DNA from: Neoroseomonas lacus
GTDB lineage: Bacteria > Pseudomonadota > Alphaproteobacteria > Acetobacterales > Acetobacteraceae
Assembly (NCBI RefSeq): GCF_014644535.1
Contig: NZ_BMKW01000001.1
Span: 248,001 to 312,000 of the forward strand
DNA: 64,000 nt
Direction: 5' to 3'
Part shown: positions 7,184-60,538 of the stretch, in pieces
How the letters are laid out: each line of letters starts with the position of its first letter
Position numbering within the stretch: the first letter of the stretch is position 1
Made by a program: the position numbers and the translations under genes
Notes under the pieces: generated by a model
What the model was told of the DNA's origin: nothing
The model's database searches: none
The model's input: only the letters and a program-made list of their open reading frames with translations

Positions 7184-7825
7184 ATGGCCTTCAGCCTGCC
7201 TCCGCTGCCTTACGCGACCGGTGCCCTTGCCGCGACCGGCATGTGCCAGGAGACGCTCGAACTCCATCATGGCAAGCATCACAACGCCTATGTCACCGCG
7301 CTGAACGGCCTGGTCGAAAGCAAGGGCCTCGCCGGCAAGTCGCTGGAGACCATCTGCGCCGAAGCCGGCAAGGCTGGCGCCGATGGCCTGCCGGTGCTGA
7401 ACCAGGCCGGCCAGCACTACAATCACTGCCTGTTCTGGCAGGTGATGGCCCCCGGCGGCGCGCATGGCGACAGCCTGCCGGCCGCGCTGGCCGCGAAGAT
7501 CGATGCCGACCTCGGTGGCCTCGCCGCCTTCAAGGACGCCTTCAAGGCGGCCGGTGCGACGCAGTTCGGCTCGGGCTGGGCCTGGCTGGTAATCGGTGGC
7601 GACGGCAAGCTGAAGGTGACCAAGACCCCGAACGGCGCCAACCCGCTGGCGACCGGCGAAGGCCAGCCGATTCTCGGCTGCGACGTATGGGAGCACGCCT
7701 ACTACCTCGACTTCCGCAACGTCCGCCCGAACTACCTGGCGAACTTCCTCGACAAGCTGGTGAACTGGGAAGTCGTCGCCGACTTGATGGCGAAGGGCTC
7801 CTTCACCACCGGCCAGTCGGCCTGA
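7184..7825 (+). CDS. sodB: Superoxide dismutase, Fe/Mn family
   Basis: It converts superoxide to oxygen and hydrogen peroxide in the cytoplasm. The 213-residue product shows the metal ligands in their usual contexts: LELHHGKHHNAYV (first His), HYNHCLFW (second His) and DVWEHAYYLDF (Asp and His). The short length, the absence of a signal peptide and the overall pattern fit the Fe type common in alphaproteobacteria, although metal choice cannot be proved by eye. The ATG at 7184 gives the normal family start MAFSLPPLPY. Upstream in-frame codons are rejected as leader. A strong terminator follows. Confidence 0.96.
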   Translation: MAFSLPPLPYATGALAATGMCQETLELHHGKHHNAYVTALNGLVESKGLAGKSLETICAEAGKAGADGLPVLNQAGQHYNHCLFWQVMAPGGAHGDSLPAALAAKIDADLGGLAAFKDAFKAAGATQFGSGWAWLVIGGDGKLKVTKTPNGANPLATGEGQPILGCDVWEHAYYLDFRNVRPNYLANFLDKLVNWEVVADLMAKGSFTTGQSA

Positions 7826-7860
7826 ATGACAGGAGGGCCGCGGCCCTCCCCTGGCTGATC

Positions 7861-7895
7861 AAGGCGCCGCGGCAGATCCCTGCCCGGCGCCTTTT
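7861..7895 (+). terminator. Rho-independent terminator of sodB
   Basis: A perfect 9-bp stem (AAGGCGCCG / CGGCGCCTT) with a 15-base loop is followed by TTTT, 36 bases after the sodB stop. Confidence 0.75.
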
Positions 7896-8016
7896 CCCGT
7901 GCCGGTTACAGTGGTGGGCATCGTCGGCCGGCCCGGTCGGCCGCACCAAGTGCTGCGGCCCCAGCGCATGCGGCTTTCGCATGCGTTCACAGCGACCACT
8001 CCAACCATTCCCTGAT

Positions 8017-8056
8017 GAGCACCGTCACGCACTCGGATGAGGCCAGCCGACCGCGA
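8017..8056 (-). repeat. 3'-end hairpin element, copy A
   Basis: This 40-bp element reads on the plus strand GAGCACCGTCACGC, four variable bases, G, two variable bases, TGAGGCCAGCC, three variable bases, CGCGA. It aligns without gaps with the copy at 58729 and with one gap with the copy at 23257. It starts 7 bases beyond the stop codon of the histidine kinase gene on the minus strand. On that strand it folds as CGCGGTCGG paired with CCGAGTGCG (one wobble, one mismatch), then the conserved tail GTGACGGTGCTC. It is probably a transcript 3'-end structure. It lacks a U-tract, so it is not a classical terminator. Confidence 0.65.
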
Positions 8057-8062
8057 CGAGCC

Positions 8063-9883
8063 CTAGGCGCGTACCCGAACCGCGTCGGCGACGGCCCGCA
8101 ACAACGTGTCGCGGTCGATCGGCTTGGCGATATGGCCGTCCATGCCGCTCGCCAGACAGGCCCGCTCCTCCTCCGGCCCGGCCTCGGCGGTGACGGCGAG
8201 GATGGGCACGCGGCTTGCCGGCCCCGGCAGGGCACGGATGCGCCGCGCGGCCTCATAGCCATCCATCTCCGGCATGAAGATGTCCATCAACACCACATCG
8301 GGTAGCGACTCTTCCTCGAGCAGCGCAATCGCCGATGGCCCGTCGGCGACGCTCTGGACCCGGTGGCCGAGCTGGCCGAGCAAGGCCTCGGCTACCATCC
8401 GGTTGGCGGCGATGTCATCGACGACGAGAATGCGGAGCGCTTCGGTCCGCTTCGGTGGTTCCGGGGCCGGCGGCTCGACTGGCGCGGGCGGGGCGACCGC
8501 GGGTAGCGGCAGCGTCACGCTGAAGCAACTGCCAACCCCGCCCGGGCCAGGCGCATACCACGCCCGGCCGCCCATGGCCTCGGCCAACGCGGCGGTGATG
8601 GCGAGGCCGAGCCCGGTGCCCTCGGTGCCCGCGGCATCGGCGCCGACGCGCTCGTAATCCTGGAACAGCCGCGCGCGGCTTTCCTCCGGCACGCCGGGGC
8701 CGCTATCCGTGATGGCAATGGTCAGCCCGGCCTGGCCGGACAGCACGGAGACCGCGATCTGGCCGCCCTCGGGCGTGAACTTCACCGCATTGCCAAGCAG
8801 GTTGAGCAGGATCTGGCGCAGCCGGACCGGGTCGACCAGCACCGCGTCCGGCAAGGGCGGCAATGGCTGGAGGCTGAGGGCGATGCGCTTCTCGAGGCTG
8901 CTCGGGCGCATGAGCTCGACCGCCTCCTGCAACTGGGCGCGCAGGTCGACGGGACGCGGTGCCAGTTCCAGGCGCCCGGCCTCGATGCGGCCGAGGTCGA
9001 GGCTGTCGTTCACGATCGCGACGAGGTGCCGGCCCGCCCGCTCCAGTGTCTCGGCGCGGTCCCGCTGCGCCGGGGTAAGCGCCGGGTCGCTGGCCAACGA
9101 CTGCGCCATGCCGAGGACGGAATTGAGCAGCGTGCGCAATTCATGGCTCATGCGCGCGAGAAAGCGCGACTTTTCTTCGTTCGCCCGTTCCGAAGCGTCA
9201 CGCGCCGCCGCCAGCAAAGCATTGGACCGCTGCTCGGCCTGCTCCTTGGCGAGCGAGACCATCAGCATCGCGATGCCGACGAAGACGACCACCGATGTCA
9301 TCGAGACGAAGCCGAAGGCGACCGACATCGTGGGCAGCCCCATGCCGACCTCCGGGTGCGGCAACAGGTGGAACAGCGGGATTCGCGACACGACGAGCGT
9401 AGCGTTGACCATCAGCAGCGCTGCAAGCGGCCTGCTCGATGGCAGTCGCGCGACGGCCGGCCCCTGCAGCAATTCCCACGCGCCCGCAGATGAGTATGCC
9501 CCGCAGACCAGGGAAGCCAGGATGAGGCGCAGCGAGAAGCTCTCGTAAAAGGCCGGCACTTGGCAGGCCAGCACCCAGAGCACCGACCCCAGGGCCATGG
9601 CGGCGGGTCGGGGCGGACGTCGCATGAACTGCCGCATGCCAGTCCAGATGAGCGCGTAGGCGAACAGCACCAGAGCGTTGGCGACGACGACCGACACGAA
9701 ATCCGGGATGTGGCCGCGCGCCGAGAGCAGTGCCGCGCCAGCCGCCGCCGACAGGAATCCGCCACCGATCCATGCCAGTGGCCGCTGCTTGCGATCCTGC
9801 CGCCAGAGCAAGAGCTGCAGCGAGCCCAGGATCAGGGCCAGCAGCCAGGCGATGGCGAAGATGGTTGGCGGATGCAGCGGCAT
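8063..9883 (-). CDS. Hybrid sensor histidine kinase with 7-TM input domain
   Basis: A 606-residue membrane sensor. About seven transmembrane helices fill residues ~5-225, followed by a short coiled linker, a HisKA domain with the H-box MSHELRTLLNSVLG, and an HATPase domain with N-box LLGNAVKFTPEGG and G-box GTGLGLAITAALAEAMGG. A Pro-rich linker leads to a C-terminal receiver domain with LVVDD, the phospho-acceptor context VLMDIFMPEMDG and the final Lys in IAKP. The H-box has Leu where most kinases have Pro (HELRTP). No DNA-binding output is present, so it probably passes phosphate on to a partner encoded elsewhere. I take the ATG at 9883 because a promoter lies just upstream of it; the longer GTG start (9958) adds AT-rich sequence upstream of that promoter. 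Confidence 0.9.
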   Translation of the reverse strand: MPLHPPTIFAIAWLLALILGSLQLLLWRQDRKQRPLAWIGGGFLSAAAGAALLSARGHIPDFVSVVVANALVLFAYALIWTGMRQFMRRPPRPAAMALGSVLWVLACQVPAFYESFSLRLILASLVCGAYSSAGAWELLQGPAVARLPSSRPLAALLMVNATLVVSRIPLFHLLPHPEVGMGLPTMSVAFGFVSMTSVVVFVGIAMLMVSLAKEQAEQRSNALLAAARDASERANEEKSRFLARMSHELRTLLNSVLGMAQSLASDPALTPAQRDRAETLERAGRHLVAIVNDSLDLGRIEAGRLELAPRPVDLRAQLQEAVELMRPSSLEKRIALSLQPLPPLPDAVLVDPVRLRQILLNLLGNAVKFTPEGGQIAVSVLSGQAGLTIAITDSGPGVPEESRARLFQDYERVGADAAGTEGTGLGLAITAALAEAMGGRAWYAPGPGGVGSCFSVTLPLPAVAPPAPVEPPAPEPPKRTEALRILVVDDIAANRMVAEALLGQLGHRVQSVADGPSAIALLEEESLPDVVLMDIFMPEMDGYEAARRIRALPGPASRVPILAVTAEAGPEEERACLASGMDGHIAKPIDRDTLLRAVADAVRVRA

Positions 9884-22542: not shown

Positions 22543-23118
22543 CTACAGCGTCCGGTCGAAGCGGCTCTGATCCATGGCGGCGAAGTCCTGGATGTCGGAC
22601 TCCTTCAACTTCCACTTCTCGACGAGGAAGGTCTTGAGGCGCAGCGATACCGACCAGGCCCCGCCGGCGAGCATGGTGTTGCGGGATTTCTTGGTCGCCG
22701 GCGTCTTCGGCCCGATATTGAGCAGGCCGAGCATGGTCGAGCACTGCACGCAGCAGGGCTTGCCGACGCAGTCCAGCGTGACCGAGCCTTCCTGCAGCAC
22801 CGCCTCGACCGCCTCGTTGCCCATGCTGCCGATCAGGAAGTCGAGCGCATCCATCTCCGCATGGCCGTGGCCGTTGCCGGTCTGGCCTTCATAGCCTTCG
22901 GGGTCGGAGTCGAACTCCTCGCTGTCGACGAAAATGACCGCACGGCACTGGGCGGAATGGTCGTCATGGTCGCCAGCCTGTTCCTCGGCGGCGAAGCTGT
23001 CCCAGGCTTCCGCGACGTCGAATTCGCGATATTCACGTCGCGAGCGCTTCGGTCGCCCGCTGGTCAGATTGCCCTGGGACGCTGTCCGCTTGGCGCCGCC
23101 GTCCGCTGATCCACTCAT
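22543..23118 (-). CDS. Putative zinc-dependent deaminase-fold protein
   Basis: A 191-residue soluble protein. A charged, disordered N-terminus (~55 residues) precedes VIFVDSEEF. The core has GHGHAEMDALDFLI with H86-A-E88, and 34 residues later GKPCCVQCSTMLGLLNI with C123 and C126. H-A-E plus P-C-(C)-x-x-C is the zinc-ligand and catalytic-Glu pattern of the cytidine-deaminase superfamily, including nucleic-acid deaminase toxins of polymorphic toxin systems. I see no toxin leader, immunity gene or secretion signal, so a housekeeping or nucleotide/RNA-editing role is equally possible. The ATG is preceded by GAGGAAA. It lies between dgt and argS on the same strand. Confidence 0.6.
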   Translation of the reverse strand: MSGSADGGAKRTASQGNLTSGRPKRSRREYREFDVAEAWDSFAAEEQAGDHDDHSAQCRAVIFVDSEEFDSDPEGYEGQTGNGHGHAEMDALDFLIGSMGNEAVEAVLQEGSVTLDCVGKPCCVQCSTMLGLLNIGPKTPATKKSRNTMLAGGAWSVSLRLKTFLVEKWKLKESDIQDFAAMDQSRFDRTL

Positions 23119-23256
23119 CGAACCGTTTCCTCAACCTGCCCGCCGGGAAGCGAGGCTAGCCGAGCCGGACGCGGAATGGAATGTGCGAAGGCCCGTGGCC
23201 AGAGCGGCTTGCGATCGACTGCGCTCACGCCAGCCGTCCAAGACACTGCCTGATCG

Positions 23257-23295
23257 GAGATCGTCACGCGCCTGGCTCACTCCGGCCGGGCGCGA
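23257..23295 (-). repeat. 3'-end hairpin element, copy B
   Basis: Second copy of the element at 8017 and 58729, one base shorter. It starts 7 bases after the dgt stop codon on the minus strand. The minus-strand hairpin pairs CGCGCCCGGC with GCCAGGCGCG (one mismatch), followed by the conserved GTGACGAT tail. The rest of the 23119-23301 gap shows no gene. Confidence 0.65.
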
Positions 23296-23301
23296 CCACC
23301 T

Positions 23302-24450
23302 CTAGCCTGGCACATCCGGGTCGGTCAGGCGCCGGTGTTCCTCCAGCGCGTAACGGTCGGTCATGCCGGCGATGTAGTCGCACACGACCAGGGCGCATTG
23401 GGCGCTGCCGGCATCCCCGGCGCGGCTGCGCCAATCGGGCGGCAGCATCTGCGGCCCGCCATGCAGCAGGCTGAACAGCATCTGCACCACGCGCTTGGAC
23501 TTCGCCATGGTGCGGTTGACCCGCCAGTGGCGGTACATCCGCGTGAACAGGAAGTCGCGCAGCGCCAGGTTGGCCTCCGCCATGCGCGGCGAGAAGGCCA
23601 CCACCGGTTCCCTGGCGCGGCGGATGTCATCGACGCTGGCCGGGTCCAGCACGGTGAGGCGCCGGCGCGTCTCGACCTCGACATCGACGACCATCAGGTT
23701 GATGACGCGGCGGATCATCTCCGGCGCCACGCGGTCCGGCGCCATGTCCGGGTTGGCCTGGCGGGCCTCGGCCAGCGCCTCGCCGATCAACGGCAGCGTG
23801 CCGACTTCCTCGAGCGTGAACAGCCGCGCCCGCAACCCGTCATCGAGGTCGTGGTTGTTGTAGGCGATGTCGTCGGCCAGGGCGGCGACCTGCGCCTCCG
23901 CCCCGGCATGGGTGTCGAGGTCGAGCGGGTGCCGCGCATCGTAGTCGGCGATGTAGGGGGATGGGCGGCGCAGCGGGCCATTGTGCTTGGCCAGGCCCTC
24001 CAGCGTCTCCCAGGTCAGGTTCAGCCCGTCGAACCCGCCATAGCGCGTCTCCAGCAGCGTCACTGCCTTGAGCGACTGCGCATTGTGGTCAAAGCCGCCA
24101 TAGGGCTTCATCGCGCTGTTCAGCGCATCCTCCCCGGCATGGCCAAAGGGCGGGTGGCCGAGGTCATGGGCCAGCGCCAGCGCCTCGGCGAGGTCCTCGT
24201 CCAGCGCCAGCAGCCGGGCGATCGAGCGCGCGATCTGCGCGACCTCGATGGAATGGGTCAGCCGGGTGCGGAAATGGTCGCCCTCGTGATAGACGAAGAC
24301 CTGCGTCTTGTACTGCAGCCGGCGGAAGGCAGTGGCGTGCACGATGCGGTCGCGGTCCCGCTGGAAGGGCGAGCGCGCGTCACCCCCCGCTTCCGGATGA
24401 AGCCGGCCGCGGGAAGTCTCGGGGCGGACGGCATAGGGTGCCAGAACCAT
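23302..24450 (-). CDS. dgt: dGTP triphosphohydrolase-like HD protein
   Basis: An HD-domain enzyme of 382 residues that hydrolyses dNTPs to deoxynucleosides and triphosphate, helping balance nucleotide pools. It has FQRDRDRIVHATAFRRLQYKTQVF, RTRLTHSIEVAQIARSIAR with the first His, AHDLGHPPFGHAGEDAL with the HD pair, and DDIAYNNHDLDDGLRA with the later metal Asp. The ATG at 24450 (MVLAPYAVRPETSRGR) is preferred over one nine codons upstream because it matches the usual family start. It is divergent from erpA across ~100 bases. The copy B hairpin element follows its stop. Confidence 0.93.
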   Translation of the reverse strand: MVLAPYAVRPETSRGRLHPEAGGDARSPFQRDRDRIVHATAFRRLQYKTQVFVYHEGDHFRTRLTHSIEVAQIARSIARLLALDEDLAEALALAHDLGHPPFGHAGEDALNSAMKPYGGFDHNAQSLKAVTLLETRYGGFDGLNLTWETLEGLAKHNGPLRRPSPYIADYDARHPLDLDTHAGAEAQVAALADDIAYNNHDLDDGLRARLFTLEEVGTLPLIGEALAEARQANPDMAPDRVAPEMIRRVINLMVVDVEVETRRRLTVLDPASVDDIRRAREPVVAFSPRMAEANLALRDFLFTRMYRHWRVNRTMAKSKRVVQMLFSLLHGGPQMLPPDWRSRAGDAGSAQCALVVCDYIAGMTDRYALEEHRRLTDPDVPG

Positions 24451-24554: not shown

Positions 24555-24908
24555 ATGCCCGACGGGTCCATCACCGCCCCCGCCTTCCGCGTCACCGAGC
24601 GCGCCCACGCCCAGATCACCGACATCGCGGCGCGCGAAGGCCGCCCCGCAGCCGGGCTGCGCCTGGCGGTCGAGGCCGGCGGCTGCTCCGGCTTCCAGTA
24701 CAAGTTCGGCCTGGAGGACGGCCCGGCCGAGGACGACCTGATCGTCGGGGAGGGTGCCGGGCGTGTTTTCGTCGACCCCGTCTCGCTCGACCTGCTGGCC
24801 GGAGCCGAACTGGATTGGGCCGAGGAACTGATCGGCGCGCATTTCGCCATCCGCAACCCGCAGGCGGTCTCCGCCTGTGGCTGCGGGACCTCCTTCTCGG
24901 TCGGCTGA
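24555..24908 (+). CDS. erpA: A-type iron-sulfur carrier, ErpA/IscA family
   Basis: A 117-residue carrier that receives Fe-S clusters from the assembly scaffold and passes them to apoproteins. The three cluster cysteines are visible: GGCSGFQY in the middle and CGCG near the C-terminus (SACGCGTSFSVG). The dgt-erpA-xth neighbourhood is the alphaproteobacterial location of the ErpA-like member, hence the symbol; IscA is possible. The AAGGAG box is 12 bases from the ATG. Confidence 0.92.
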   Translation: MPDGSITAPAFRVTERAHAQITDIAAREGRPAAGLRLAVEAGGCSGFQYKFGLEDGPAEDDLIVGEGAGRVFVDPVSLDLLAGAELDWAEELIGAHFAIRNPQAVSACGCGTSFSVG

Positions 24909-25038
24909 CGCGTTTGAGCGTGACGACCGCCGCTGCGGCTGCACCGAAGGTCTGAATCGCGCGATCATTCCCGGGTTCGGAAGGTGATGCGCGAACCACA
25001 TCGAATGCGTCACGTTCTATTGCATCGCAGCATTTTCA

Positions 25039-57760: not shown

Positions 57761-58252
57761 TCAGAACATCCCAATCGCCAGCCCGGCGGCGATGGTCGCA
57801 CCAAGTTCCTCGCAGCGCGCGATGTCCTCTGCTGCGATCGTCTTCGGCGCGAGGATTGCCTCCGGCGTCTGTGCATGGGTGCACACGATGATCGGCTCGG
57901 CGACGGCCCGTAGCCGCCACCCCGTCGCGATGCGCGCCACCTGCCGCACCGCGTTGCTCCCATCGCTGCCCGCACAGACCATCAAGCCGTAGGCGCGCCC
58001 CTCGACCCGCCCCAGCGCCGCGTAATAGGTGCGATCGAAGAAGTCCTTCATCATCCCGGCGATGGCGGCGAGGTTTTCCGGCGTTGCGAAGATGTACGCA
58101 TCCGCCGCCAGCACATCCTCCGCCGTCGTGTCCCGCGCTTCCAGCAACCGCACGGCGACGCCCTCGCCCGCCGCCGCGCGCGCCGCCGCCTGCGCCATCT
58201 GCCGCGTCCCGCCGGTCATCGAATGGAACACCACCAGCAGCGTCTTCGTCAT
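57761..58252 (-). CDS. Flavodoxin-fold protein / NAD(P)H-dependent FMN reductase-like
   Basis: A 163-residue flavodoxin-like protein. The FMN phosphate loop is HSMTGGTRQMAQAAARAA, the second region YIFATPENLAAIAGMMKDFFDRTYY covers the isoalloxazine site, and GLMVCAGSDGSNAVRQ follows. It is a likely small electron carrier or quinone/FMN reductase. It is divergent from the CMD-family gene (50 bases between starts), which may share its regulation. Confidence 0.85.
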   Translation of the reverse strand: MTKTLLVVFHSMTGGTRQMAQAAARAAAGEGVAVRLLEARDTTAEDVLAADAYIFATPENLAAIAGMMKDFFDRTYYAALGRVEGRAYGLMVCAGSDGSNAVRQVARIATGWRLRAVAEPIIVCTHAQTPEAILAPKTIAAEDIARCEELGATIAAGLAIGMF

Positions 58253-58302
58253 CGCAGGCCCTCGCGTCTATGCTCGCGTCCCATCATGCAGGAGGAACCA
58301 CG

Positions 58303-58710
58303 ATGACCGACAAGGCTGCGCATGACGCGCTGCAAACGACCGGCCGCCAGGCGATGACCGAGGTCCTGGGCGAGGCCTACACCGCCCGCCGCGACACCAC
58401 CACCACGCCGCTGAACCAGGCGCTGCGCCATTTGTCGGAGGAATTCCCCTACGCCTCGCTGTGGACGCGCGACGTCATCACGCGTCGCGAACGCTCCATG
58501 GTGACGATCGGCATGTTGGTCGCGATGAGCCAGCACCACGAACTGCGCGGCCACTTGGTCGGTGCGTTGAACAATGGCTGCACACCCGAGGAGATCGCCG
58601 AGGTTATTACCCATGCCTGCGCCTATGCCGGCTTCCCCGCCGCCATCGCGGCGATGCGCACGGCCGAGGACGTCCTGCGCGAGGTCGGCGCGACACCGAC
58701 CTCGCCCTAA
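58303..58710 (+). CDS. Carboxymuconolactone decarboxylase family protein
   Basis: A 135-residue small helical protein. It has TPLNQALRHLSEEFPYASLWTRDVI, RRERSMVTIGMLVAMSQHHELRGHLVGALNNGCTPEEIAEVI (seen in parts) and THACAYAGFPAAIAAMRTAEDVL. It lacks the CxxC of AhpD, so it is nearer to PcaC (4-carboxymuconolactone decarboxylase), although no other aromatic-catabolic genes are nearby. The ATG at 58303 follows GGAGGA. Confidence 0.88.
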   Translation: MTDKAAHDALQTTGRQAMTEVLGEAYTARRDTTTTPLNQALRHLSEEFPYASLWTRDVITRRERSMVTIGMLVAMSQHHELRGHLVGALNNGCTPEEIAEVITHACAYAGFPAAIAAMRTAEDVLREVGATPTSP

Positions 58711-58728
58711 ACCGCCTCTTCCTTGTTC

Positions 58729-58768
58729 GAGCATCGTCACGCGCCTGACTGAGACCAGCCAGGCGCGA
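58729..58768 (-). repeat. 3'-end hairpin element, copy C
   Basis: Third copy of the 40-bp element, gap-free against copy A (8017). It starts 7 bases after the stop of the ThDP enzyme gene on the minus strand. The hairpin is the longest of the three: CGCGCCTGGCT pairs with AGTCAGGCGCG (one G-U) around GGTCTC, then the tail GTGACGATGCTC. It separates two convergent genes. Confidence 0.65.
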
Positions 58769-58774
58769 TCTTCC

Positions 58775-60538
58775 TTAGCGGATGCGTGGCCCGGTGCGCC
58801 GCGGTGCGGGTGCGGGCGCCGTCCGGCTAGTGGCCGCCGGCGCCGCGGCACCCTCCGACTTCGCCGCCTGCGCGCGCAGGTCGGCGATGGTGGCGCGATT
58901 GGTCACCTGCTCGGGGTTGGTGCGCACCTCGACCAGCGCCGGCTTGCCCGACGCGATCGCCCGCTTCACCGCCGGGACCAGTTGCTCGGTGGTCTCGACG
59001 ATCTCGCCATGCCCGCCGAACGCCTCGATGAATTTGGCGAAATCCGGGTTGGTCAGCGCGGTGCCGGAGACGCGGGCAGGATAGGTGCGCTCCTGATACA
59101 TGCGGATCGTGCCGTACATCTGGTTATTGAACACCAGGATGATCGGGTTCACCGAATGGTGGAACGCGGTGGCGATCTCCTGCCCTGTCATCATGAAGCC
59201 GCCATCGCCGACGAAGGCGACCACGGTGCGATCCGGATGGGTGATCTTCGCGCCGATCGCCGCCGGCACCGAATACCCCATCGCGCCATTGGTCGGGCCC
59301 AGGAAATCCTGCTTCTCGCTGAAATGCATGAAGCGGTTCGGCCAGGTGGCAAAATTGCCGGCATCGGTGGTGAAGATGGTGTCCTTGGGCAGCACCGCCT
59401 CCAGCTCCTGCAAGGCAGTCGCGAGGTTCAGCGGCCCCTCATAGACCGGCGGCACCGCCTGAGCGACGCGCAGCGCGCGCAGTTCCTTGGTCCAGCCACC
59501 CCAGGCTGGCTTGGCCACCGCCCCGGCCGCCTTGGCCGCCGCGGCGAAGGCATTCACCTCCGACACGATGCCGAGCGCGGGCCGATAGACGCGCCCGATC
59601 TCCGCCTGGTCCGGATAGACATGGACGATCGGCGTCGCCCCCGCCATGTCGAGCAACGTGTAGCCCTGGCTCACCGGCTCGCCGATGCGCGTCCCGATGG
59701 CGAGGATGAGGTCGGCCTCCTTCGCCTTGGCGACCAGTCCGCCATCGGCGCCGACACCCAGGTCGCCGACGTAATTCGCCGAGGTCCCGTCAAATAGCCC
59801 CATGCGGCGGAACGCCACCGAGACCGGCAGGTCATTGGCCAGCAGCCAGTCGCGGATGTCGGCCTTGCCCTGCTCCGACCAGCGCGACCCGCCCAGCACC
59901 ACCAGCGGCTTCTTTGCCGCCGCCAGCATCTTCATCACCCGCGGCATCGCCTCGGGCGCGGGGTTGGCCGGCAGCACCTCGGCCGGGCCGATATCCGGCA
60001 CATTGGCGAGACGCTTCTGCATCTCCTCGCTGATGGCGACCACCACTGGGCCAGGTCGGCCCGAGGTCGCGACATCGAAGGCATGCGCCATCAATTCGGG
60101 GATGCGCTTCTCGTCATCGATCTGCGTCACCCATTTGGCCAGCGGGCCGAACATCTGGCGGTAATCGACTTCCTGGAAGGTCTCGCGATCCGTCTCATCG
60201 ACCGGAATCTGCCCGACCAGCAGCACCAGCGGCGTCGAATCCTGGAACGCCACATGCACGCCGATCGCGGCATGGCAGGCACCCGGGCCCCGCGTGACGA
60301 TCGCCACCCCCGGCTTGCCGGTCAGCTTGCCGTAGGCCTCGGCCATATGAACCGCGCCGGCCTCGAAACGGCAGGTCACCAGCTGAAGCTGGTTGCGCAC
60401 CGAATAGAGACCGTCGAGCAGGTCGAGATAGGATTCGCCCGGCACGCAGAAGGCGTGTGTCACACCCTGGGCCACCAGCGCATCGGCCAGCAGCTTGCCC
60501 CCCGTGCGCCCCGTAGTGGCGCGCCGACCCTCAGTCAT
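58775..60538 (-). CDS. Thiamin diphosphate-dependent enzyme, acetolactate synthase-like
   Basis: A 587-residue ThDP enzyme of the acetohydroxyacid synthase / oxalyl-CoA decarboxylase superfamily. The catalytic Glu is in VTCRFEAGAVHMAEAYGKL. The central FAD/DHS-like domain holds KKPLVVLGGSRWSEQG, and the ThDP-Mg motif is VGDGGFMMTGQEIATAFHHSVNPIILVFNN (seen in parts). It is not a clear IlvB: no regulatory ilvH follows, and the C-terminal ~40 residues are an Ala/Pro/Arg-rich tail. The substrate is a 2-keto acid of unknown identity. The ATG has GGAAGGA at 8 bases. Confidence 0.88.
   Translation of the reverse strand: MTEGRRATTGRTGGKLLADALVAQGVTHAFCVPGESYLDLLDGLYSVRNQLQLVTCRFEAGAVHMAEAYGKLTGKPGVAIVTRGPGACHAAIGVHVAFQDSTPLVLLVGQIPVDETDRETFQEVDYRQMFGPLAKWVTQIDDEKRIPELMAHAFDVATSGRPGPVVVAISEEMQKRLANVPDIGPAEVLPANPAPEAMPRVMKMLAAAKKPLVVLGGSRWSEQGKADIRDWLLANDLPVSVAFRRMGLFDGTSANYVGDLGVGADGGLVAKAKEADLILAIGTRIGEPVSQGYTLLDMAGATPIVHVYPDQAEIGRVYRPALGIVSEVNAFAAAAKAAGAVAKPAWGGWTKELRALRVAQAVPPVYEGPLNLATALQELEAVLPKDTIFTTDAGNFATWPNRFMHFSEKQDFLGPTNGAMGYSVPAAIGAKITHPDRTVVAFVGDGGFMMTGQEIATAFHHSVNPIILVFNNQMYGTIRMYQERTYPARVSGTALTNPDFAKFIEAFGGHGEIVETTEQLVPAVKRAIASGKPALVEVRTNPEQVTNRATIADLRAQAAKSEGAAAPAATSRTAPAPAPRRTGPRIR

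Follow-up and report, generated by a model that had tools for sequence, protein, structure and literature searches.

Three copies of a repeat at the ends of minus-strand genes

The window, that is, the whole 64,000-nucleotide stretch of Neoroseomonas lacus DNA analyzed here, contains three copies of a structured repeat (A, B and C), each directly after the stop codon of a minus-strand gene. According to Pfam, the genes that end at A, B and C encode a hybrid histidine kinase, an HD-domain (dgt-like) protein and a ThDP enzyme, respectively. A probable fourth, decayed copy lies on the plus strand. Bit scores and E values refer to R1, a covariance model built from 13 rows that include copies A and B and leave out copy C.

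7964..8063, minus strand: copy A, whole element (hairpin 1 at about 8063-8017, linker, and a diverged hairpin 2 to about 7964); 65.3 bits, E 7e-14, and read from the sequence
8063..8065 (CTA on the plus strand), minus strand: TAG stop of the hybrid histidine kinase gene, formed by the flanking TA and the first base of copy A
23202..23302, minus strand: copy B, whole two-hairpin element; 85.5 bits, E 1.1e-18
23302..23304 (CTA), minus strand: TAG stop of the dgt-like gene, formed by the flanking TA and the first base of copy B
58677..58775, minus strand: copy C, intact hairpin 1 (58775-58729) and linker; 52.7 bits, E 7.3e-11, and read from orthologous sites
58775..58777 (TTA), minus strand: TAA stop of the ThDP-enzyme gene, formed by the flanking TA and the first base of copy C, here an A
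24918..25017, plus strand: probable fourth, decayed copy; 22.4 bits, E 0.0012

The part of copy C that should hold hairpin 2 falls in the end of a convergent plus-strand ORF (58084-58710) and has been lost or replaced. The decayed copy begins about 10 bases past the stop of a plus-strand gene (24555-24908) and by eye resembles the GCGTGATGGCCGCAGG subfamily. Rfam at the gathering score finds two tRNAs in the window and nothing on the repeat copies.

A first-pass annotation of the same DNA had described a 40-bp hairpin element placed exactly 6 bases after three unrelated stop codons. The positions of the three copies, the stops of minus-strand genes before them, the 6 bases and the ungapped alignment of copies A and C all hold. 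The 40 bp are only hairpin 1 of a unit that is about 100 bp long at A and B, and the 6 bases are not a spacer, being positions 2-7 of the element itself. A hairpin in each copy was likewise claimed; folded alone, copy C is more stable than shuffled sequences (z -2.45), but A (z -0.74) and B (z -1.43) are unremarkable. The conserved tail motif is real, with 83 whole-genome matches at one mismatch or fewer against three for the reversed pattern, although not all 83 are copies: 14 of the 30 loci shown were true by eye, including 8 of the 12 exact matches. A looser tail pattern gives 66 matches in the window alone, where 40 are expected.

A family of two-hairpin elements with stems modestly maintained in resident copies

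The first-pass annotation had proposed building a covariance model from the copies and searching the genome with it, and this was productive: R1 finds at least 135 matches at E <= 0.1 in the N. lacus genome, at least 109 of them at E < 1e-5, a few of the weak matches overlapping stronger ones on the opposite strand. An alignment of 13 true copies gives a repeat unit of about 102 bases, in which a linker like GATCAAACAATGGCTT joins hairpin 1 to hairpin 2. The layout is GAGC-hairpin 1-GCTC, a TCAAACAA-like linker, then TTAGAGC-hairpin 2-GCTC. At C2:99977, C7:320357, C8:101882, C16:22545 and C20:53794 the same genome also holds a distinct subfamily (GCGTGATGGCCGCAGGTGCGAATGCACC...), whose linker and hairpin 2 follow this plan.

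Compensatory changes, which had also been expected, are present: 16 of 30 pairs carry double changes among the 13 copies, and 29 of 30 among 100 copies. In the 13-copy alignment, which was not fitted to the structure, 81.4% of pair cells are standard, and the covariation score of 0.300 was reached by none of 500 shuffles, versions with the pairing slid scoring at most 0.092; for one measure, that of further pair types, 31 of the 500 shuffles came up to the observed value. The score is 0.415 when 100 copies are fitted to the model, and slid versions stay at or below 0.092. RNAalifold applied to the 100 copies recovers only the hairpin-1 stem, with nine pairs, all of which have double changes.

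Such family-wide covariation is what would be expected if the copies were RNA 3'-end signals, either terminators or stability hairpins, held at stop codons by selection. Much of the covariation, however, is difference between subfamilies, and within three subfamilies covering 93 of the 100 copies, single changes break 371 of 2706 pair cells, which speaks against maintenance as an RNA. Double changes private to one copy keep the pairing in 45 of 66 cases (chance taken as 4/9; p 8.5e-5), and this is a point in favor of an RNA signal. Taken together, the subfamily-level covariation, the broken cells and the private changes mean that pairing is firmly conserved in the spreading lineages but only modestly in resident copies. 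Because covariation is strong family-wide and modest among private changes, a role in RNA after insertion is possible, and some inserted copies may serve as 3'-UTR hairpins in mRNA.

The element begins inside the stop codon

Flanking sequence was read for 104 of the 135 R1 matches, the 98 strongest and six weaker ones, with genes called by a simple codon-usage script. Six of the 104 lie inside called genes and three have no neighbor on one side and were left unclassed; the remaining 95 comprise 47 between convergent genes, 41 between tandem genes and 7 between divergent genes. Convergent gaps make up 98 of 565 in 800 kb of the related genome G010 and 8 of 52 in the window. The claimed bias to gene 3' ends is therefore genuine (47/95 convergent against 7/95 divergent), and it is a second feature that an RNA 3'-end signal would predict.

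Among genes pointing at the hairpin-1 edge of the flanked matches, 22 of 70 end exactly there, at element base 1, and of those pointing at the hairpin-2 edge, 21 of 68 end exactly at the mirrored position; all other gene-end distances are spread out. Since genes end at opposite edges about equally, the polarity of the element relative to the gene is not fixed, which is hard to reconcile with an RNA signal. One edge is a stop in 44 of the 98 strong copies, and both edges are in none.

Why should a repeat so often begin inside a stop codon? The edge consensus is Y-TA|GAGC...GCTC|TA-R. In the 98 strong N. lacus copies, TA stands on the left in 42 and on the right in 27, compared with 1% of window dinucleotides, and the next commonest edge dinucleotides are TG and CA, as decay of TA would give. 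TA on both sides is found in 9 of 98 copies, which is not above the expectation from independence. In the 19 best-scoring copies from relatives (two of 21 loci were truncated and omitted), TA is on the left in 17, on the right in 12 and on both sides in 11. TAG accounts for 38 of the 45 stops at element edges and for 49 of the 234 other stops in these loci (Fisher p 5e-16). TA is missing from four used edges, of which three belong to hairpin 2 and the fourth to hairpin 1.

Is TA at the edge simply because a gene uses it? Where the neighboring gene points away from the hairpin-1 edge, TA is present in 14 of 25 strong copies, so that at this edge it is not merely there because the gene uses it. 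None of the 16 copies whose neighboring gene points away from the hairpin-2 edge has TA there, so that at this edge it survives mainly where a gene uses it; this counts against a simple account of both edges.

The distance to the stop is fixed because the TA used for insertion is part of the stop codon. With G as the first base of the element and C as its last, a flanking TA and the adjoining element base would together read TAG on the strand of the gene, whichever end faces it. An element that inserts into the TA of an existing TAG or TAA stop would thus begin inside the stop codon and leave the protein unchanged. Stops probably supply a good part of the non-coding YTAR sites in TA-poor genomes, and harmful insertions would be lost, leaving copies gathered at gene 3' ends. 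YTAR sites outside coding sequence are stops in 39 of 247 cases in the 800 kb of G010 and in 5 of 15 in the window. The fraction of copies at stops (44/98) exceeds both backgrounds, which can be counted in favor of an RNA signal and makes some further preference or selection for stops, beyond neutral choice of YTAR sites, likely. The first-pass annotation was thus right that the copies are not randomly placed with respect to stop codons, but the cause is target choice together with a duplicated TA, and target choice accounts for the spacing that had suggested an RNA signal.

The window sites in related genomes

At site B, the 29 dgt orthologues shown from the genus stop at the same codon (TGA in 27, TAG in 2), and no copy is visible within 150 bases after the stop in any of these 29. 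The closest named dgt relatives among the matches listed are Neoroseomonas soli (88%) and Roseomonas sp. CECT 9278 (86%). In 80 dgt loci from other species, some of which end soon after dgt, there are no R1 matches just after the gene, and this absence again argues against an RNA signal that serves the gene. In the window, dgt is followed by the repeat and a 191-aa ORF without a Pfam match (22543-23302), and in most of the genus genomes shown there is an ATG within about 15 bases of the dgt stop, opening an ORF that starts MTENIFT and which we take to be argS-like.

At site C, 28 orthologues were shown, with TGA in 25, TAA in 2 and TAG in 1. In the single TAG orthologue (G006) the gene ends at an oppositely oriented copy, and one of the TGA orthologues (G023) has, by eye, a copy about 40 bases further on. 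Most element-free relatives have TGA at sites B and C, and the stop that stood there before insertion is one that we infer.

Four orthologues of site A could be aligned across the stop: G016 has a copy of another subfamily and a TAG stop, and three show no copy. The site A orthologue in G001 has a TGA stop and no visible copy. A second palindrome (about 7861-7897) lies between the histidine kinase and superoxide dismutase genes; it is terminator-like without a long T-run and is also found in G003, which has no element there. The presence of this other palindrome downstream counts against a 3'-end signal at copy A, and a scan of 7700-8120 finds no intrinsic terminator at copy A. By eye, no T-run follows the hairpins of copies B and C.

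A terminator class, one of the roles suggested for the element, is not supported in view of the variable polarity, the target duplication described below and the absence of copies in orthologues. The wider claim of an RNA 3'-end signal at a functional distance from stop codons is likewise not supported, given insertion at the TA of stops, the use of either end to face the gene and the dgt loci that lack the element. Overall, selection of RNA 3'-end signals at stop codons is an improbable explanation for the placement of the copies.

Occupied and empty sites

Two pairs of sister species have an occupied and an empty version of the same site. The site in G005 reads GTTTA[101 bp]TAGCG and the empty site in G025 reads GTTTAGCG, with flanks identical over at least 15 bases on each side. 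The TA at this site is part of the TAG stop of a 393-aa ORF that is beta-lactamase-like by eye; in 16 relatives shown, all element-free, the stop is TGA in 12 and TAG in 4. In the second pair, G034 reads GCTA[101 bp]TAGAAG and the empty site in G033 reads GCTAAAAG. Both empty sites have one TA where the occupied sites have two, i.e., the gain is 101 bp plus a 2-bp TA duplication. These are the only two clean pairs, and both are from genomes other than that of the window. A third candidate, site A in G016 versus G003, is too diverged to read. The 800 kb of G010 hold eight repeat matches and, site C excepted, no empty site for the N. lacus copies. The flanks of the L077 site are non-collinear in relatives, where no empty site is readable, and in the G005/G020 stretches the collinearity (27 kb) is too small for such a reading.

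These pairs bear on a different explanation, that TA is a fixed part of the element, which would spread by recombination or gene conversion between palindromes instead of by TA-targeted transposition. The rarity of both-sided TA in the N. lacus copies agrees with this explanation, as do adjoining copies that have a single TA in common, for example in G032. Recombination of a TA-containing unit is nonetheless highly improbable, as the empty junction has precisely one TA in both pairs. Very probably, the repeat is a non-coding, non-autonomous, MITE-like mobile DNA element of about 101 bp that inserts at YTAR with duplication of TA. Understood as such an element, the repeat accounts for the puzzling constancy of the spacing, and no new RNA signal is needed. 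It also warns that target choice can place a structured element at a constant distance from stop codons.

Distribution and possible sources of transposase

All 35 genus genomes have a repeat match at E <= 1e-5, as do at least 56 of 119 genomes in all, including that of N. lacus. In a class-wide draw, 11 of 385 genomes match at 1e-6, again counting N. lacus, and several of the class members shown keep the TA-GAGC ends and two hairpins. Relatives of the repeat reached via these class members occur in nine Azospirillum plasmid records. With L508 as the query, one Sinorhizobium plasmid record was found, at 74.5% identity over 101 bases to a site on pNGR234b of Sinorhizobium fredii NGR234 that has CTAGAGC...GCTCTAG ends, a GGAATC loop and the two-hairpin plan. 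That site as the query in turn matches 146 plasmid records, nearly all of them rhizobial by name; in 24 of the 146 the match spans 80% or more of the site. With L062 as the query, two Komagataeibacter plasmid records matched over half the element; with L061, no plasmid record matched.

Which transposase might move the repeat? A REP/BIME system of tetranucleotide-tagged hairpins mobilized by a RAYT (Y1 transposase) would fit the short palindromes, the high copy number and the adjoining copies, and GTAG REPs are reported (PMC3733652) often to give the TAG stop to flanking ORFs. However, the N. lacus genome (97% complete) has no match to PF01797, whereas 6 of 14 control genomes do, and the TA target duplication and a bipartite unit of about 101 bp, instead of 20-40 bp, also speak against such a system. 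We consider mobilization by a RAYT to be scarcely credible. 

For the MITE-like element, a transposase would act in trans, possibly one of the IS5 family. Of 36 matches to the IS5-type PF13340, 30 loci were read, and among these one IS5-family type, with two copies in G012, has GAGC...GCTC ends at TTA/TCA with an inverted repeat of 16 of 18 bp. This element (L460 and L466, about 1363-2295) is 933 bp long with GAGCCTGACC ends, and a 75-aa piece of it matches NF033580. By eye, a hairpin-1-plus-linker sequence stands before one copy, at TTA, and a hairpin-2-like sequence stands after the other. The likeness seen between this IS5-family element and the repeat lies in the GAGC ends, and the element is a candidate source of helper transposase and no more. 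A further IS5-type element in the N. lacus genome (L475; C12, near 143208) has GAGTC/GAGCC ends and lies between TAA and TAA, a hint of a 3-bp duplication and thus an imperfect fit to the TA of the repeat. An IS630 parent was also considered: 16 loci, from five of the six genomes searched, gave three weak 14-of-20 pairs and no convincing TA-flanked inverted repeat.

Likeness to known repeats

The repeat is a CIR/RIME-like alphaproteobacterial element, probably of a known type, which gives an ordinary but instructive cause for the spacing. CIR (Chen and Shapiro 2003, via PMC2229807 and PMC10969869) is described in a 2007 review (PMC2229807) as an alphaproteobacterial element of about 110 bp with two arms and a linker, GANTC in the terminal loop, and TA termini; there its target duplication is marked '?' and the mechanism of mobility is left open. 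A 2024 review (PMC10969869) counts CIR among the MITEs and calls it strictly intergenic. The repeat analyzed here shares with CIR, which we compare by its description only, the two arms and linker, a similar size, TA termini and a loop GANTC. It differs in that TA duplication is seen and that 6 of 104 copies are inside called genes. With TA duplication now given for a repeat of the CIR plan, dependence on a transposase and on methylation becomes testable.

GANTC is found in the hairpin-1 loop of 19 of 19 best-scoring copies from relatives and 40 of 100 N. lacus copies, a contrast weakened by the choice of the 19 with a model whose consensus is GAATC. By eye, it is absent from window copies A, B and C. 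In N. lacus copies the GANTC columns are kept at 75-87% compared with 70-81% beside them, which gives no clear sign of upkeep after insertion.

RIME1 is a 108-bp element with two palindromes. The Rhizobium-specific intergenic mosaic element (RIME; Osteras 1995, cited in PMC2573895 and PMC2245857) may be represented by the pNGR234b site, which has the two-hairpin plan and is linked to the repeat via L508. In the open-access literature, among the matches listed, we recognized no description of this Roseomonas repeat, nor of TA duplication for CIR or RIME.

Other families are similar in part. The GTAG and CGTC REPs share the 3'-end and convergent location, but they are 20-40 bp with a tag at one end, the GTAG type is RAYT-linked, and CGTC REPs are reported missing in Acetobacteraceae (PMC3733652); the repeat is instead bipartite and TA-duplicating, with no Y1 transposase found. 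Because GTAG REPs were already reported there to supply TAG stops, the supply of stops by a repeat is not new. The RUP, Correia/NEMIS and ERIC MITEs are alike in their size of about 100-200 bp, TA termini and target duplication (PMC2229807); unlike the repeat with its two separate arms, they fold end to end through a terminal inverted repeat, and they have other hosts.

It is tempting to view the CIR/RIME-type repeats of Alphaproteobacteria as one TA-duplicating superfamily moved in trans by an IS5-type transposase, with the loop GANTC tying movement to CcrM methylation and replication and with stop codons as a preferred safe harbor, but we consider this extension unlikely as a whole. As a minor observation, the Brucella sRNA family CI27 (Rfam BASRCI27) gives sub-threshold matches at L062:1491-1684, covering a copy, and at L516:697-863, mostly beside a copy; sRNA families such as BASRCI27 may have been partly assembled from repeats like this one.
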